Below, in pieces: positions 5,459 to 24,422 of a DNA stretch of 64,000 nucleotides; within the stretch, counting starts at the first letter, position 1; every line of letters begins with the position of its first letter. The stretch is from Modestobacter sp. VKM Ac-2984 (lineage in GTDB: Bacteria > Actinomycetota > Actinomycetes > Mycobacteriales > Geodermatophilaceae): positions 1 to 64,000 of the forward strand of contig NZ_JAPVBJ010000011.1 in NCBI RefSeq assembly GCF_026967985.1, written 5' to 3'. The notes beneath the pieces were generated by a model. That model did no database searches and was not told the origin of the DNA. It saw only the letters and a list, made by a program, of their open reading frames with translations. Position numbers and translations under genes: made by a program.

Positions 5459-6804
5459 TGAGGTACCCAGTCTCCGTAATACCACACGGTGCGCGGCTTG
5501 GAGCCTCGGAACGAGGTTACAGCTCCGCGGGAGCGCTCCAAGTGTACGTGAAAAGGTTGCAGTCTCTGTCGCCAAGCGGGCATTTGCTTCCAGTACTTTT
5601 CGGCCCCGCCCGCCGATATGCGAAATGCTCCATCCTTTCCCTTGTTTCCCATTCTCAGGACACTGTTATTCTTGACCTTATTCTTGGCCTTTGGAACCAC
5701 ATTATAACCAGCTCGCTTGCTATTGATCCACTTCACTGCAGCACGGACACCTTTAGCACAAAAAGCCCGACACAAGTACGCCGCTACACACCACGGGCAA
5801 CGACCGTCGATGTCGGTCACGTTAATCGGGTCTGCATTGACGTACTCGTAGTCGTTGGCGCTGCCGCCGTGGACGGGGTCGACGGTGAGGAAGCGGCCGA
5901 GGGCGGGGGCGTAGAGGCGGACGCCCATGAGGGTGAGGCCACCGGGGATGCTGGCGTCGCGCTGGTGGGTGCCGAGCCAGCTGTAGCGGGGTGCGGTGGT
6001 GCCGGCGGCGGGTTGGGTGCGGGATTCGCCGTATTCGGTGGTCTCGGTGACCTTCATGTCGTTGGGTGTGGCGGCGGTGAGGGGCATGGTGGCGGCGATG
6101 TCGCCGTGCAGGTTGGCCAGCTGCATGGTCACGACCGGGCTCTGGGTGCCGGCGAGGGTGACGACGGCGGCGAGGCCACCGAATGAGGCGATGTTGCGGG
6201 TGTAGCTGTTGTCGGTTTCCTTGACGACGTCGGGGTTGTCATCGTCGCCGGAGTAGTAGCTGACGGCGGGATTGGAGCCGCCGGTGTCGGTGCGGATGGT
6301 GCGGCGGGCCGCGGCGTCGAGGCCGAAGGTGGTGGTCTTGGTGCCTTGGGTCATCTTGGCGACGAGGTCGTCGACGTAGTAGTCGATGGTGACGTCACCG
6401 CCCTGGTCGGTGGTGTCGGTGGAGGCCAGGACGCGGGTTCGTCCGAGGGTGTCGTAGCGCAGGCCCGTGCGGGCGCCGGTGGGTTGGAGCCGGTCTGCGG
6501 TGTCGTAGCTGTAGGTGTCGGCGGCGGGGACGCTGGTGGGGCAGGTGCCGGCTGGTGCGCCTGCGGTGGCGGTCTGGGTGAGGCCGGTGCGGTTGCTGTT
6601 GGCGTCGAAGGTGTACCGGCGGGTGCAGGACGGCCCGGTGGGCAGTCCGTTGGCCCCGAGCTGGGTGGTGTCGGTGACGGTGGCGAGCCGGCCGATGTTG
6701 TCGTAGCCGTAGCGGTTGGTGCGGTCGGTTCCGTTGGCGGTGGCCAGTCGGTAGGAGTCGACCTGGTCGAAGCCGGTGATGGTGGCGGTGGAGCGCAGCC
6801 ACTC
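5455..6804 (-). pseudogene. RHS-repeat polymorphic toxin, C-terminal cassette, 5'-truncated
   Basis: The frame encodes the last RHS/YD repeats (YDNIGRLATVTD, YDTLGRTRVL) and the RHS-associated core GLTLMGVRLYAPALGRFL...DPINVTDIDG near residue 365 of the open frame. A variable C-terminal domain of about 115 residues follows. That domain begins with a cysteine cluster (CPWCVAAYLCRAFC) and contains GAFRISAGGAEKYWKQ, HVHLERSRG and a terminal VWYYGDWVPQ. RHS proteins normally exceed 1,500 residues; here sequence similarity stops near 6,800, where a plus-strand gene fragment begins, so the export and shell portions are gone. The domain boundary also marks a drop in G+C. The toxin domain is not one I can name, though conserved H/R/K residues hint at a nuclease. 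Confidence 0.75.
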
Positions 6805-18071: not shown

Positions 18072-18803
18072 TCAGCGCGGCTTCGTGCCCAGGTAGACGG
18101 TGTTCGTGGCCGGCCGGTCCTGCAGGGGGTTGGGGAAGCTGACGACCTCGGCGGCGACGTCGGTGAAGACCTCGGCCAGCACGGACAGGTAGCCGTCCTC
18201 GGGCGGGTCGTTCGACCACAGGGAGAACACCCCTCCCGCCCTCAGGTGCTGGGCCAGCCGTCGCGTGCCGTCGACCCCGTAGAAGCCGGCGCTGCCGTCG
18301 GCGAGCAGGTGCTGCGGTGAATGGTCGATGTCGACGACGACGGCGTCGAACACCCGGCCGGGCGTCGCGGGGTCGAAGCCGGCGCCCTCGGTCATCGCGA
18401 AGAAGTCCCCGTGCACCAGCCGGCAGCGGGGGTCGGCGGTGAGCGTGGGGCCGACCGGCACCAGCCCACGCTCGTGCCAGCCGATCACCGGCTCGAGCAG
18501 GTCGACGACCACCAGCTCCCGCACCCGCGGGTCGGCCAGGACCGCCTCCGCGGTGTAGCCGAGCCCGAGCCCGCCCACGGCCACGTCCAGCCCGGGCGCA
18601 CCGGCGGCGGGCCCGTCGAGCCGCGCCAGCGCGAGCCGGGCCACCGCCACCTCGGCCACGGTGAACTGGGTGGACATCAGGAACTCGTCGCCGAGCTTCA
18701 CCTCGAAGACGTCGAGTCCGGTCACCGGGTCCCGCCGCCGGCGCAGGCTCACCTCGCCGATCGGCGTGGGGCTCCAGTCCAGCTCCTCGATCCGGGCGCT
18801 CAT
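18072..18803 (-). CDS. Spermidine synthase-like (class I methyltransferase fold) protein
   Basis: A 243-residue protein from ATG 18803. It reads as the Rossmann domain of polyamine aminopropyltransferases: GLDVAVGGLGLGYTAEAVL (cofactor loop), VRELVVVDLLEPVIGWHERG, CRLVHGDFFAM and FDAVVVDIDHSP. The short N-terminal beta domain of classical SpeE is reduced, so this is a spermidine synthase-like protein whose substrate is uncertain. The gene starts 26 bp after the stop of the reverse transcriptase gene on the same strand, so the two are probably cotranscribed. Similar genes occur widely in actinobacteria as stand-alone genes, so any link to the retron-like locus needs comparative evidence. Confidence 0.75.
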   Translation of the reverse strand: MSARIEELDWSPTPIGEVSLRRRRDPVTGLDVFEVKLGDEFLMSTQFTVAEVAVARLALARLDGPAAGAPGLDVAVGGLGLGYTAEAVLADPRVRELVVVDLLEPVIGWHERGLVPVGPTLTADPRCRLVHGDFFAMTEGAGFDPATPGRVFDAVVVDIDHSPQHLLADGSAGFYGVDGTRRLAQHLRAGGVFSLWSNDPPEDGYLSVLAEVFTDVAAEVVSFPNPLQDRPATNTVYLGTKPR

Positions 18804-18829: not shown

Positions 18830-20179
18830 CTACGAGGGCGGGGGAGCCGACCAGTCGATCCGGTCGGCCAGGGCGTGCAGCCGGGCGCCGAACCCCGGGT
18901 CGATGGAGGCGGCCCAGGCCACCCGGCCCAGCACGTGGTCGCGGAAGGTGGCCGGGTCGTGGCCGCGGGTCTGGGTCGTCCAGCCGTGGACGGCGCAGTT
19001 GTGCAGCAGCGCCCGCAGCGCGTCCCGCTCCGGCCGTGGCAGGGCGGGGTGGTCGTTGACCACCGTGCCCAGCACCGACTGCCGGCGGGCGGCGCTGGTC
19101 GCCGAGGTCTTCGCCGCGTTCACCCGGAAGCCCTCCTCCTCGACCACCGCGGTGACCAGGGCGGCAAACCGGTCGCGGGCGATCCGCCGGTCCCCGCTGA
19201 AGGTCAGGTCGTCGACGTAGCGGGTGTAGGTGGCACCGGTGGCGGCGGCGAGCCCGGTCAGCCGGCGGTCGAGTCGGTGGCAGACCAGGTTGGCCAGCGC
19301 CGGGGACGTCGGCGCCCCCTGCGGCAGGTGCGGCACCGCCAGCCGCTGACCCAGCCGCCGGTGCCGTTCCCGCGCCTCGATCCCGTCCGGGGCAGGGATC
19401 TGCCGCCACACCTCGGTCGGCAGCACCGTCGTCACCAGCCCGGTGAGCACGTGCGCCACCGGCTCGGGCAGGCCGGCGACGCCCAGCAGCAGGCCGTGCA
19501 CCCGCCCGGCGGCGACGCTGGCGAAGAACGCCTCCAGGTCCATCCGCAGCACCACCGCGGACCCGGCGTGCGGGGCGACCGCGGTGCGCACCGAGCGGCC
19601 GGGCACGCAGCCGTGCGCGGCGTCGTGCACCGGGATGCGGTCGAACACGTGCCGCAGCACCCGCCGCTGCGCCTCCTTGAGCCGCGGCTTGGGGGCGGCG
19701 AGCAGCCGCACCCCGGCCGGGCGCCGGACCACCCGCCACCGGTAGTGCCGCAGCGCCTCGCCGGCCGTGCACTCCAGCCGGCGGGCGTCGGCGAACCACG
19801 CCAGCTCGCCGGCGTCGACGTCGAGCAGTCGGGCGACCGCGGCCTGGTCCGGGAGGTCGGCGACCGGCCACCGCCGCCAGGCCAGCGCCGTCGGCACCGG
19901 TTGCCACCGCACGGGCCGGGGGAGCGGGGGCTGGGACTGCCCGCGCTCCCACCCCCGCGTCGTCCGGACGACGTCGGCCAGCTCCCGCGGCCGGTCGACC
20001 GGGGCGGCGGGGTAGACCGTCTGCACCTCCCCGACCAGCGTGCCCACCCAGGTACGGGCGCGGTCCTGGCCCAGCGCCACCGCCACCCGGCGGACCATCT
20101 CCCGCCGGCGCCACGGGCCGGCCAGCAACGCGGTCGCGATCGCCGCGGCGGTGGCTGCGGCCTGCCGCTCGGCGGTCAT
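18830..20179 (-). CDS. Retron-like reverse transcriptase
   Basis: A 449-residue protein from ATG 20179, preceded by GGGGAG. Residues 1-140 form an unassigned extension. The RT domain follows: PKPRLKEAQRRVLRHVFDRI (163-182), first catalytic Asp in LRMDLEAFF (Asp214), HLPQGAPTSPALANL (284-298), YVDD (Asp323, Asp324), GFRVNAAKTS (350-359) and SVLGTVVND (368-376). The QGAPTSP box and the last motif resemble retron and actinobacterial retron-like RTs; the usual VTG reads VLG here. No maturase, endonuclease or integrase domain is present, so a group II intron or diversity-generating element is unlikely. The hairpin-rich element immediately upstream strongly suggests a retron-type template. The catalytic triad is complete, so activity is expected. 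Confidence 0.88.
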   Translation of the reverse strand: MTAERQAAATAAAIATALLAGPWRRREMVRRVAVALGQDRARTWVGTLVGEVQTVYPAAPVDRPRELADVVRTTRGWERGQSQPPLPRPVRWQPVPTALAWRRWPVADLPDQAAVARLLDVDAGELAWFADARRLECTAGEALRHYRWRVVRRPAGVRLLAAPKPRLKEAQRRVLRHVFDRIPVHDAAHGCVPGRSVRTAVAPHAGSAVVLRMDLEAFFASVAAGRVHGLLLGVAGLPEPVAHVLTGLVTTVLPTEVWRQIPAPDGIEARERHRRLGQRLAVPHLPQGAPTSPALANLVCHRLDRRLTGLAAATGATYTRYVDDLTFSGDRRIARDRFAALVTAVVEEEGFRVNAAKTSATSAARRQSVLGTVVNDHPALPRPERDALRALLHNCAVHGWTTQTRGHDPATFRDHVLGRVAWAASIDPGFGARLHALADRIDWSAPPPS

Positions 20180-20192
20180 CGCAGCTCCCCGT

Positions 20193-20208
20193 GTGCACGG
20201 CGGGGCGG
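20193..20208. repeat. Inverted repeat arm (a2 candidate)
   Basis: GTGCACGGCGGGGCGG on the plus strand, an exact reverse complement of 20338-20353. Pairing stops at the flanking bases on both sides. On the RT-coding strand this is the downstream arm, ending just before the RT ribosome-binding site. Confidence 0.95.
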
Positions 20209-20337
20209 CCAGCCGCTCCTCGCTGGAGGCGCCGCCTGGTGCGCGGAGCGCACAGCGCGGCTCATGACGCCATGCCCGACCTGCTCACGATGCCCCGGGG
20301 TTGCCCCGGGGTGACCGGCTGATGCCGACCGTCCTGC

Positions 20338-20353
20338 CCGCCCCGCCGTGCAC
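20338..20353. repeat. Inverted repeat arm (a1 candidate)
   Basis: CCGCCCCGCCGTGCAC on the plus strand, the exact partner of 20193-20208. It touches a further 9-bp perfect hairpin, CCCGGCCAC-cgta-GTGGCCGGG at 20353-20374, which would form the 5' side of the transcript. Confidence 0.95.
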
Positions 20354-20458
20354 CCGGCCACCGTAGTGGCCGGGCCGGGAGGCGGATGCGGGACACAGCC
20401 ACCCGTCGTGCCCCAGGATGGGCTGCCCGCAGTACCCGACCCGCCCAGGAGCACCGCT

Positions 20459-21079
20459 GTGACCTCGTCCTACTCCGGCCAGCCGCCGGCCCCGATGGCC
20501 GTCCCGGCCTTCTTCGTCTCGCAGCGGGTCACCATGATGGTCAACCGCTACGAGATCCGGGCCGTGCAGCCCGACGGCTCCGAGGGCCACCTGCTCGCGC
20601 TGGCCGAGCAGAAGCGGATGAAGCTGAAGGAGGAGGTGGTCTTCTACGCCGACGAGGCGAAGAGCCGCGCGGTCTTCTCCTTCAAGGCCCGCCAGCGGCT
20701 GGACGTCTCGGCCCAGCACGACGTCTTCGACGAGCACGGTGCACCGCTGGGCATGTTCAGCAAGCAGTTCGGGGCCAGCCTGCTCCGCTCGACCTGGACC
20801 CTCTCGGCCCCGGGCATCGAGGCGGTCGGCCGGGAGCGTCGGCCGGTCCTGGCGGTCGTGCGCCGGGTCTGGACCGCGCTCCCGGTCGTCGGCGACGTCC
20901 CGGTGCCCTTCGTCTTCCACTTCGACTTCGTCGACACCGCGACCGGGGCCCCGGTGCTGATCAGCGAGCGGAAGAAGGCCATCCGGGACCGCTACACCGT
21001 CACGGTGCCCGACCCGCGGCTGGACTTCCGGGTCGCCGCCGCGATGGCCGTCGCCCTGGACGCGCTGCAGAGCCGCTGA
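20459..21079 (+). CDS. LURP-one-related / scramblase-like protein
   Basis: A protein of 206 residues from GTG 20459, with AGGAG seven bases upstream; the longer frame from 20348 would cross the hairpin element and is rejected. A Pro-rich N-terminus leads into a beta-rich domain with YEIRAVQPDGSEGHLLALAE, FSFKARQRLDVSAQHDVFDE and FSKQFGASLLRSTWTLSAPG, the Tubby-like/LURP-one pattern of phospholipid-scramblase relatives. It has no clear membrane segment. The biochemical role of bacterial members is not established. Divergent from the RT locus. Confidence 0.7.
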   Translation: MTSSYSGQPPAPMAVPAFFVSQRVTMMVNRYEIRAVQPDGSEGHLLALAEQKRMKLKEEVVFYADEAKSRAVFSFKARQRLDVSAQHDVFDEHGAPLGMFSKQFGASLLRSTWTLSAPGIEAVGRERRPVLAVVRRVWTALPVVGDVPVPFVFHFDFVDTATGAPVLISERKKAIRDRYTVTVPDPRLDFRVAAAMAVALDALQSR

Positions 21080-21091
21080 CGCGGGCGGGCG

Positions 21092-21496
21092 CTACAGGTA
21101 CCGGCTCTCCAGCTCCGCGAAGAAGGCCTTCGCCAACGCGGTGAAGTCGGCCTCGCGGACGGCGATCTCGTCGCCCACCCGGTACTTGAGCACGGTGCGC
21201 GCCGGGTCCAGCCGGACGTGCTTGTCGGCCTTCATCGTGCTGCCGTGCACCAGCGACTCGGCGATCAGCCGCACCTCGTTCAGCGCGTTGCCGTCCGAGC
21301 CCTCGATGCCCCGGCCGCGGTACACGAACCAGTTCTCCAGCACCACGACCAGGTCGTTGAAGAAGACGGGTTCGAACTCGCGCAGGGCGGCCGGCTCGGC
21401 GGCGGCGGCCAGCTCCCGGTAGGCGGCGACGCGGGCGTCGACCGCCGCGCGCCGTCCCTCGATGTAGTCCAGTGCGTAGGTGCTCTGACACAACAC
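21092..21496 (-). CDS. Conserved hypothetical protein
   Basis: A 134-residue protein from GTG 21496, with GGAGGAG upstream. It is predicted mostly helical: [20 protein letters not shown], then [35 protein letters not shown] and a C-terminal [17 protein letters not shown]. No catalytic motif, signal or membrane segment is seen. Codon use fits the host and the protein looks like a conserved actinobacterial cytoplasmic family, but I cannot give it a function. It converges with the LURP-one-like gene only 12 bp away. Confidence 0.65.
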
Positions 21497-23075: not shown

Positions 23076-24422
23076 TCAGGCGCTGGGGCGGACGCCGCCG
23101 ATGAAGCCGCTCCACCGCATCGACGTCACCCGGATGACCGAGCCGCTCTGCGGTGCCTCCAGGATCTGGCCGCCGCCGAGGTAGATGGCCACGTGGTGGA
23201 TGGTCGAGGGGCTGCTGGTGTTGGTGGCCCAGAAGACCAGGTCGCCGCGCTGCAGGTCCGACCGGGAGACCTTGGGCAGGGCCGAGTACTGGGCCCGGCT
23301 GTTGCGCGGGATCGAGACGCCGGCCTGGGCGTAGGCGTAGCGGGTGAGCCCGGAGCAGTCGAAGCCGACGATGCCCGCGTCCACCCCCCAGCCCATGCTG
23401 GGCCCGGTGAGCGACCCGCCGCCCCAGGAGTAGATGGTGCCCAGGTGCCGGCGCGCGGCGGAGATCGCGGTCTCGACCGCGGAGGAGTCGCCGGTCCCGG
23501 CGGAGGTGCTCGTCCGCGGCTGGGAGACGACGGAGCGGGTGGGTGCAGACGCCCGCTCGGCGGCGGCCCGTTCGGCGGCAGCGCGCTCGGCGGCAGCGCG
23601 CTCGGCGGCAGCGCGCTCGGCGGCAGCGCGCTCGGCGGCGGCCTGCTGGGCGGCGTGCTGCTCGGCGGCGGCGCGGGCGCCCTGCAGGCCGAGGAGGGCC
23701 TGCTGGGCCTGGGCGAGCTCCTGCTCGAGGGTGGCCTGCCGGGCGGCGAGCCCGGCCGCCTGCGCCCGGGCCCCGGCCTCCATCGCCACGGCGGTGGCCA
23801 GCGCGTCCTCGGCCTCCAGCTCCAGCGTCGCGGCCGCGGCCAGGCTCGCCTGGGCGGCGGACTCGGCCGCGCGGGCCCGCTCCTCGGCGGCCGTGACCGC
23901 GGTGACGACGTCGCCCTGGTGGGCGCCGGCGGCCTCGAGGAGGGCGGCGCGCTCCAGCATCTGCGCCGGGCCGTCGGCGGTGGTCAGCGCCTCCAACGTC
24001 GGGGAGGTGCTGCCCTGCTGGTAGCTCTGCCGGGCGAACGAGGCGATGTTCGTGCGGGCGGTGGACAGCTCGGCCGCGGCCTGGTCGGCGGAGGCCGCTG
24101 CGGCGTCGGCCGCGACCTGGGCCAGCTCGTACTCGGCCTGCTGGGCCTGGAAGGTGTCCAGGGCGATCGCCGACTGCGCCCGGGCGGCGTCCACCTCGGC
24201 CTGCGCGGTGGCCAGCTCGGCGGAGAGGGAGCCGACCTGCTGCGCGGCGGCGTCCTGCTGCTGCCGGGCCGCGCTGATCTGCTCGTCGGAGGGGTTGGTC
24301 GGGGTCGCCGCGGCGACGCCGGGGGCCGCCACCAGGCAGAGGGCGGCCACGACGACCACGCCGGCCATACGGCGCACCGGACGGGTGCCGGTCCACCGCT
24401 GGGTCGATGCCTTGGTGCCCAT
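23076..24422 (-). CDS. Secreted NlpC/P60 (C40) peptidoglycan endopeptidase, RipA-like
   Basis: A 448-residue protein. A signal peptide (VVVAALCLVAAPGVAA, about residues 22-38) is followed by a long Ala/Gln/Glu coiled coil (about 45-285). A linker of six AERAA repeats comes next, then a C-terminal catalytic domain. The NlpC/P60 triad is visible as Cys in GFDCSGLTRYAY, His in TIHHVAIYLG and a later polar residue. Coiled-coil plus C40 domain is the plan of RipA-type hydrolases, where the coil blocks the active site until processed. It cleaves peptide stems of peptidoglycan during cell separation. The repeats are encoded by near-identical 15-bp DNA units. Confidence 0.9.
   Translation of the reverse strand: MGTKASTQRWTGTRPVRRMAGVVVVAALCLVAAPGVAAATPTNPSDEQISAARQQQDAAAQQVGSLSAELATAQAEVDAARAQSAIALDTFQAQQAEYELAQVAADAAAASADQAAAELSTARTNIASFARQSYQQGSTSPTLEALTTADGPAQMLERAALLEAAGAHQGDVVTAVTAAEERARAAESAAQASLAAAATLELEAEDALATAVAMEAGARAQAAGLAARQATLEQELAQAQQALLGLQGARAAAEQHAAQQAAAERAAAERAAAERAAAERAAAERAAAERASAPTRSVVSQPRTSTSAGTGDSSAVETAISAARRHLGTIYSWGGGSLTGPSMGWGVDAGIVGFDCSGLTRYAYAQAGVSIPRNSRAQYSALPKVSRSDLQRGDLVFWATNTSSPSTIHHVAIYLGGGQILEAPQSGSVIRVTSMRWSGFIGGVRPSA
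23551..23640. repeat. Six tandem 15-bp units encoding AERAA repeats
   Basis: Four successive units from 23581 are near-identical GCGCGCTCGGCGGCA, preceded by two diverged copies. They lie within the peptidase gene and keep the frame, so copy number could change linker length without inactivating the enzyme. Confidence 0.85.

Follow-up and report, generated by a model that had tools for sequence, protein, structure and literature searches.

The question raised by this locus is whether a reverse transcriptase (RT) gene and the inverted repeat upstream of it together make up a retron, a bacterial system credited with producing a small RNA-DNA hybrid, and, if so, what such a retron might do. The window, a 64,000-nucleotide stretch of DNA from Modestobacter sp. 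VKM Ac-2984, carries both on its minus strand, and a first-pass annotation had proposed a retron-like system in an actinobacterium. This proposal was right, and the nearest named relatives of the system are found in Modestobacter. The RT gene and the upstream RNA very probably constitute a retron that consists of a promoter, a non-coding RNA and the RT, with no linked effector found. They appear to represent a little-studied branch of retrons that travels without the partner toxin gene of the better-known ones. A 2019 review treats the retrons of this phylum, in the part bearing on them, as bioinformatic predictions of which none had been validated (PMC6868368), and a Rhodococcus ruber gene carries the label retron-type polymerase in a passage of another paper (PMC6498646).

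The reverse transcriptase

The RT belongs to the retron clade. Its open reading frame (18830-20179, minus strand) encodes 449 amino acids from an ATG start and is taken to be a retron RT from its PADLOC, Pfam RVT_1 and Foldseek matches. The catalytic residues described in the first-pass annotation, Asp214, Asp323 and Asp324, are present and are invariant in all 33 aligned RTs. The best PADLOC profiles are RT_other (PDLC02949; 7.4e-164) and RT_outgroup (PDLC03740, kind 'retron'; 1.6e-153), and the window RT scores far lower with the third family, RT_XIII (1.7e-85), which matches residues 108-441 only. The first two profiles also lead in five of the six relatives tested, the exception being a planctomycete RT (L052) for which RT_XIII comes first. 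In the entries examined, RT_other and RT_outgroup are RT profiles with no effector, RNA or type attached. A group II maturase profile reaches 47.6 bits against a cut-off of 300, and the NCBIfam retron profiles match with scores below their cut-offs.

Structural comparison gives the same assignment. The AlphaFold model of the RT (pLDDT 88.3, pTM 0.65) was compared with the PDB by Foldseek, and the top 18 matches are all retron RTs (7v9x, E 6e-19); with VIA-align, 9lm3 aligns with a Z of 25.6 over 237 residues at 2.3 A, and residues 102-444 or so of the window RT are matched. The closest PDB sequences are those of Ec86, Ec78 and Ec67, and the nearest solved folds, the RTs of Ec86 (Eco1) and Ec67 (Eco2), share 23-32% identity with the window RT. 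The effector is a separate protein in Ec86 and is fused to the RT in Ec67, whereas none was found linked to the window RT. The retron motifs depart from their usual form, a point against the retron reading: the X motif reads HDAAH instead of NAXXH, with H189 kept in more than 90% of the rows of the RT alignment, and the Y motif reads VLG instead of VTG, which some relatives have. In the retron set of PMC4244168, as given in the part of that paper that deals with these motifs, NAXXH occurs in 59% and VTG in 47%. In nine comparisons that each include the window RT, dN/dS over residues 101-449 is 0.28-0.50, where dS is rough because of the strong GC bias.

An upstream RNA closed by a1/a2 repeats

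The exact 16-bp arms reported at 20193-20208 and 20338-20353 are both there, and the 13-nt gap between the end of the 3' arm and the ATG of the RT was also given correctly. The arms can be lengthened to 24 nt at 92%, and 121 nt separate them. When arms at least 60 nt apart are counted, the longest perfect inverted repeat in the 321 nt upstream of the RT is 16 bp, a length reached in none of 1000 dinucleotide shuffles (maximum 14). None of 199 tiles of 321 nt spanning the whole window has an inverted repeat longer than 11 bp, the element itself being split between two tiles. The RNA fold of 211 nt has a predicted energy of -138.6 kcal/mol (z -4.36).

Loss of the repeat beside homologous RT genes had been named in advance as evidence against a retron. 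When this comparison was run, a1 and a2 were found to be kept beside RTs down to about 44% identity. The relatives carry them in the same place with different letters and compensatory changes, and most loci of the host's family have the repeat about equally far from the RT start. The letters differ in distant loci, where they read, for example, GTGCGGTGGCGC or GTGCGGCAGCGC. Across a 29-locus family alignment the order of elements is a -10-like box, a1, CAGGAC, two msr-like hairpins, a variable stretch, an msd-like hairpin and a2. CAGGAC is invariant in this alignment, with G as the next base in all but one locus, and so is the tip of the msd-like hairpin, GCGCTCCGCGC.

The covariance test that the first-pass annotation had called for was carried out as well: a1/a2 and the inner hairpins covary, and a covariance model, R1, was built from 27 loci. 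In an alignment of 27 family loci (A3), 97.9% of the cells of the named structure are paired, and pairing falls to 41-48% when the partner is slid by one to three columns. Two-sided changes occur at 9 of 44 pairs, compared with 5.0 in shuffles, and in 35 cells, compared with 11.7, a count reached by none of 500 shuffles. The weak one among the five covariation measures is the number of further pair types (26 against 24.0, with 37 of 500 shuffles as high). A second alignment (A4) of 24 R1 matches outside the training set has two-sided changes at 36 of the 44 pairs and in 190 cells, against 52.5 after shuffling; A4 is fitted to R1, and two of its 24 members are chance matches. A structured upstream non-coding RNA closed by a1/a2 is conserved with the RT.

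The whole RNA (msr-msd; 20189-20356, minus strand, as are all parts described here) is matched by R1 with 152.9 bits (E 4.6e-24); the window locus is in the training set of the model, and the second-best score within the window is 18.5 bits. The 5' arm of the 16-bp repeat, a1 (20338-20353), continues as G-CAG to 20334. The CAG (20334-20336) closes the a1/a2 stem by pairing with CTG at 20210-20212 and is invariant in all 27 A3 loci. The 3' arm, a2 (20193-20212), consists of the exact 16-bp core at 20193-20208 together with this paired CTG. Over the 27 loci the a1/a2 helix is 97.5% paired, with changes on both sides at 7 of its 18 pairs. Inside the stem, four hairpins had been claimed, and three of them, two msr stem-loops and the msd hairpin, are firmly conserved. 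Stem-loop 1 (20313-20330) has a 6-bp helix with 100% of cells paired in A3 and two-sided changes at six of six pairs in A4. Stem-loop 2 (20293-20311), which reads CCCCGGGG-CAA-CCCCGGGG, is paired in 99.1% of cells in A3 and 99.5% in A4. The msd hairpin (20231-20261), with its near-invariant tip GCGC-TCC-GCGC, is supported by pairing and covariation: pair 101/125 changes from GC to AU in 8 of the 27 loci, and all four basal pairs have two-sided changes in A4. Its GCTCCGC tip is also found in Dietzia, Tsukamurella, Saccharothrix and one Nocardioides locus. The fourth, small hairpin (CCTC..GAGG, 20218-20229) held up less well, with 91.4% of cells paired in A3 and 75.9% in A4.

Distribution of the RNA

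Within the host's family, 49 of 112 genomes carry an RT homologue (match at E 1e-30 or better). R1, scanned over the same 112 genomes with stricter filters, gives one match each in 36. Every one of these 36 genomes belongs to the 49 that carry the RT, and the other 63 have no R1 match. The 13 RT-bearing genomes with no match under these filters include four with only partial RT matches (G045, G050, G052 and G109); RT identity in the other nine (G066, G071-G074, G078-G080 and G084) is 46-51%.

Among 29 RT loci outside the training set, R1 matches at the RT 5' end in 22. Five of the 22 (L045, L047, L053, L074 and L075) are close kin of training loci, and the five weakest matches (E 0.018-0.56) overlap two chance matches in score. 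There was no R1 match at the RT in the other seven (L051, L052, L079, L080, L087, L093 and L094). Scores outside the family reach 68.7 bits in Dietzia, 58.8 in Tsukamurella and 53.7 in Saccharothrix; those in Burkholderia, 27.1 and 21.8 bits, are weak alone, the two chance matches lying in the same range. The distance from the R1 match to the projected RT start, taken at 18 loci, is between a 15-nt overlap and a 108-nt gap in 16 of them. In L045 and L078 the match overlaps the projected start by more than 200 nt, in L045 because its RT is frame-shifted.

Inverted repeats occur in GC-rich leaders, and their general occurrence there would allow the repeat to be a transcription terminator, an attenuator or a transposon end with no tie to reverse transcription. 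The association with RT genes makes this highly improbable, since R1 matches in the 112 family genomes occur only together with an RT (36 of 36) and the internal msr-like hairpins covary over several families. In addition, no run of T follows a2, and a search of the window with 4227 Rfam models gave no match above the gathering threshold, the best sub-threshold match on the stretch having an E of 0.32.

A probable promoter and a proposed model for msDNA synthesis

A -10-like box, TACGGT (20360-20365, minus strand), precedes a1 and is kept in Geodermatophilaceae loci, unchanged in 22 of 29 and as a variant in the other 7. It lies 28-31 nt ahead of CAGGACG, where the spacing is counted from the base before the box and the patterns were written once the alignment had been seen. 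The sequence 5' of the box differs between genera. TACGGT probably acts as a promoter box, which would place the start of transcription close to a1. The 9-bp hairpin that had been noted at 20353-20374 is real, but relatives keep the TACGGT box and not the hairpin; it was therefore rejected as a part of the RNA and is most likely promoter sequence. Directly 3' of a2, GGGGAG (20185-20190, minus strand) is, from its sequence, the likely ribosome-binding site of the RT. In two Burkholderia loci, a -35 TTGACA and a -10 box can be read by eye just ahead of a1.

Transcription would run from the box through the RNA (about 20193-20353) and on into the RT gene, a unit for which the conserved box, the RNA structure and the gene order are the observed basis. 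Pairing of a1 with a2, which the covariation demonstrates, would set an AG at the inner end of the stem. If the system works as known retrons do, the RT would bind the msr hairpins, prime from the 2'-OH of G20334 and copy the msd template upstream of a2. We propose G20334 as the priming (branching) guanosine, with G20333 as the alternative, because the CAG resembles validated contexts in PMC6868368. The contexts that the review lists for validated retrons are TAGC, CAGC, CAGA, GAGC and ACGC, and the CAGG of the window is absent from that list. The stem-closing triplet is GAG in many distant loci, and some have GG rather than AG. The predicted start of reverse transcription lies opposite about 20213. 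The product would be a branched molecule of RNA and DNA, its DNA part reaching about 78 nt at most and including a GCGC-GGA-GCGC hairpin; the DNA fold of the predicted cDNA is no better than that of its shuffles (z 0.19). Most likely, the RT and its msDNA would form a nucleoprotein, with a partner that is either encoded elsewhere or provided by the RT's own N-terminal helical domain.

The search for a linked effector

The first-pass annotation had also hinted at phage defence. This hint is unsupported: no shared neighbour was found, and the five window neighbours searched have no PADLOC match. Two scans were made of the flanks. The first covered 608 ORFs of at least 25 aa from 35 loci in seven lineage groups, within 1.2 kb before to 2.6 kb after the RT start, and gave one weak between-group pair; pairs within the mixed group 'oth' were left uncounted, and BLAST has little power with the shortest ORFs. 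The second covered 1811 flanking ORFs of at least 90 aa from 53 loci, a set that includes some genomes twice, and yielded no RT-adjacent cluster across lineages among the 40 largest. These 40 are mainly single-lineage blocks, from 13 loci in Modestobacter, two groups of 7 loci on the Geodermatophilus side, and another genus with 5-6 loci. Lineages are joined by a few clusters, whose side of the RT and distance from it differ. One such cluster, of seven loci, is found immediately 3' of the RT at several loci of a single genus; in L076 and L078 it is kilobases upstream. Neither Pfam nor PADLOC matched the g9 members tested, and the L076 member is an ABC-type ATPase that matches defence ATPase profiles. 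At several loci of one genus within the family (L081, L086), an ORF of about 250 aa with no Pfam or PADLOC match lies directly 3' of the RT, and this ORF could be a lineage-specific partner.

No neighbour was found to be common to the seven lineage groups, and the unit therefore looks like promoter, msr-msd and RT only; the linked effector of a tripartite defence retron was not found at the loci scanned. DNA matches across changed neighbourhoods have much the same limits, window positions 18846-20371 in L070 and 18829-20373 in L071, and correspond to the -10 box, the RNA and the RT. The retron lies to one side of a neighbour gene in one Modestobacter sublineage and to the other side of it in a second, and a relative with no RT match has these neighbour genes.

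Two adjacent genes were considered as partners and rejected. The downstream gene (18072-18803, about 28 nt after the RT), which we take to be spermidine-synthase-like, adjoins the RT only in the window, L031, L032, L033 and L047 among the loci searched. The upstream divergent gene, presumably LURP-one-like, switches side or is far off elsewhere and is present in a retron-free genome. PADLOC found no match for seven neighbours in all (five from the window, two flanking the Tsukamurella copy), and four further window genes belong to ordinary Pfam families (NlpC/P60, MMPL, MscS and the succinate dehydrogenase flavoprotein). The NlpC/P60 family protein (23076-24422, minus strand) has a run of AAER repeats in its linker. 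The genes at 20498-21079 and 21092-21496 are conserved in Modestobacter, and neither is matched in Pfam or NCBIfam at E 0.001; depending on the species, the retron is found on one side or the other of the 20498-21079 gene.

Could this still be a classical phage-defence retron, with its effector gene in trans? In such a system the msDNA-RT complex would restrain a toxin, and phage interference would free it. Two papers (PMC12548924, PMC12405507) describe retrons as immune systems whose effectors are toxic, and several of the solved complexes nearest to the window RT include an effector, to judge by their titles. A defence gene would also fit the scattered occurrence, in 49 of 112 genomes of the family and 5 of 396 sampled from the phylum, and one likely transfer (G092). 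Against this stand the scans that found no gene linked across the seven lineage groups, the seven neighbours with no PADLOC match and the ordinary families of the four further window genes. We regard an effector in trans as plausible, though short of probable.

Inheritance and the myxobacterial parallel

The count of 5 in 396 phylum-sample genomes was obtained at E 1e-40 and includes the host's own genome. In a named collection, RT homologues occur at 23 loci, mostly in Modestobacter, Geodermatophilus and Blastococcus, with more distant ones in Nocardioides, Saccharothrix and a planctomycete. The RT tree largely tracks host genera. The RT at L064 (G092), a genome of the window's genus, groups with Blastococcus and not with the RTs of its own genus, and it lies in another gene context, which argues for horizontal transfer as the likely origin of this copy. 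Phages were rejected as carriers, the RT giving 8 weak matches there. Viral contigs were likewise rejected as a source: RT identity is at most 40% in the 80 loci retained out of 169, and when R1 was run on 29 of those 80, which carry other retron-like RTs, it gave a single match, at E 1.

In 5 of the 49 genomes (G043, G048, G063, G101 and G104) the RT coding sequence falls into different reading frames, so that either the RT is dispensable or some of the assemblies err. Split copies were seen at L047, L046, L074, L075, L045 and L053, some of which may be assembly errors; upstream of the split RTs at L047, L053, L045, L074 and L075, the RNA still scores 120-156 bits.

The myxobacterial retrons Mx162, Sa163 and Mx65 offer a parallel at the level of published descriptions. 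As described in part of PMC6868368, their RTs have an extended N-terminus, as the window RT does, and their priming context is CAGC or GAGC, where the window RNA has CAGG. The Mx162 msDNA is 162 nt long, compared with about 78 nt at most expected here, and the phylum differs. Like the long-discussed myxobacterial retrons, the window retron might be domesticated or selfish, its msDNA having a role outside defence or none. This would agree with the lack of any effector found, with an RT tree that runs mostly along host genera, and with Mx162 and Sa163, which are described as vertically inherited in the same part of that review. Selection on the RT and the RNA structure speaks against a total lack of function, and the 63 of 112 family genomes with no RT match speak against an essential role. 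A domesticated or selfish retron is thus a credible reading that we would not yet call probable.

The N-terminal helical domain

The retron is distinctive in two respects: scans over several host lineages found no effector linked to it, and its RT has an extra N-terminal domain. Residues 1-89 (19913-20179, minus strand) are modelled as five helices outside the RT fold (pLDDT 87.1). Alignments to retron RTs start around residue 102-103, and the domain has no counterpart in the alignment with Ec86 and Ec67. It has no Pfam match, and a Foldseek search of the PDB returned nothing better than E 1.5, a result that does not by itself show a new fold. Over residues 1-100, dN/dS is 0.36-0.62 in nine comparisons with the window. 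The domain is alignable in 27 of 33 RTs, the six with unclear starts being omitted, and its invariant residues are few (M1, L19, W44, P60, D62 and P64). At L078, the R1 match (6453-6676, minus strand) covers more than 200 nt of the 5' end of the assumed RT ORF; the RNA there overlaps the domain-coding region, so this RT may be without the domain.

This domain might itself be the effector, or bind one, so that the RNA and a fused protein would make up the system, much as in the single-gene types of PADLOC in which a Toprim or TIR domain is fused. The domain is well predicted, is under purifying selection (from the dN/dS values above) and is alignable in most of the RTs. On the other hand, neither a fold nor a family matched it, few of its residues are invariant, Mx162-type RTs likewise carry N-terminal extensions to which PMC6868368 assigns no role in the part describing them, and the L078 RT may lack the domain. 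An effector role for the domain seems unlikely.

A broader proposal is that the loci form a multi-family actinobacterial retron class, with relatives on Burkholderia megaplasmids, that works as a two-part machine. It would consist of the RNA and an RT with its own, so far unrecognised helical domain, and the msd tip GCGC-TCC-GCGC, which would become a C-GGA-G DNA hairpin in the cDNA, would serve in sensing or docking; the near-invariant tip would here be a feature of the actinobacterial members. We put this forward tentatively and consider it rather doubtful. If true, it would amount to a retron mode with no separate effector gene.

The analysis defines an RNA family, strongly supported by covariation, for a retron branch known to PADLOC only under 'other' and 'outgroup'; msr-msd covariance models are among those that PADLOC searches, according to the description in its web-server paper. 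With this RNA in hand, the role of effector-less retrons becomes a testable question in culturable desert actinobacteria. Modestobacter caceresii (L032) and Geodermatophilus telluris (L042) are among the culturable carriers. The loci could also be a possible source of native producers of single-stranded DNA for GC-rich actinobacteria.

Relatives on plasmids of other bacteria

The same retron class appears to be present in another phylum, on Burkholderia plasmids (L089, 4540-4779; L092, 4490-4722), with a consensus-like promoter before a1. Read by eye, the msd tip of these two loci is GCGC-GTT-GCGC instead of GCGC-TCC-GCGC. A Methylobacterium plasmid (L093) carries a related RT at which the R1 element is not detectable; by eye, a long palindrome-like stretch lies about 200-270 nt before its projected RT start.
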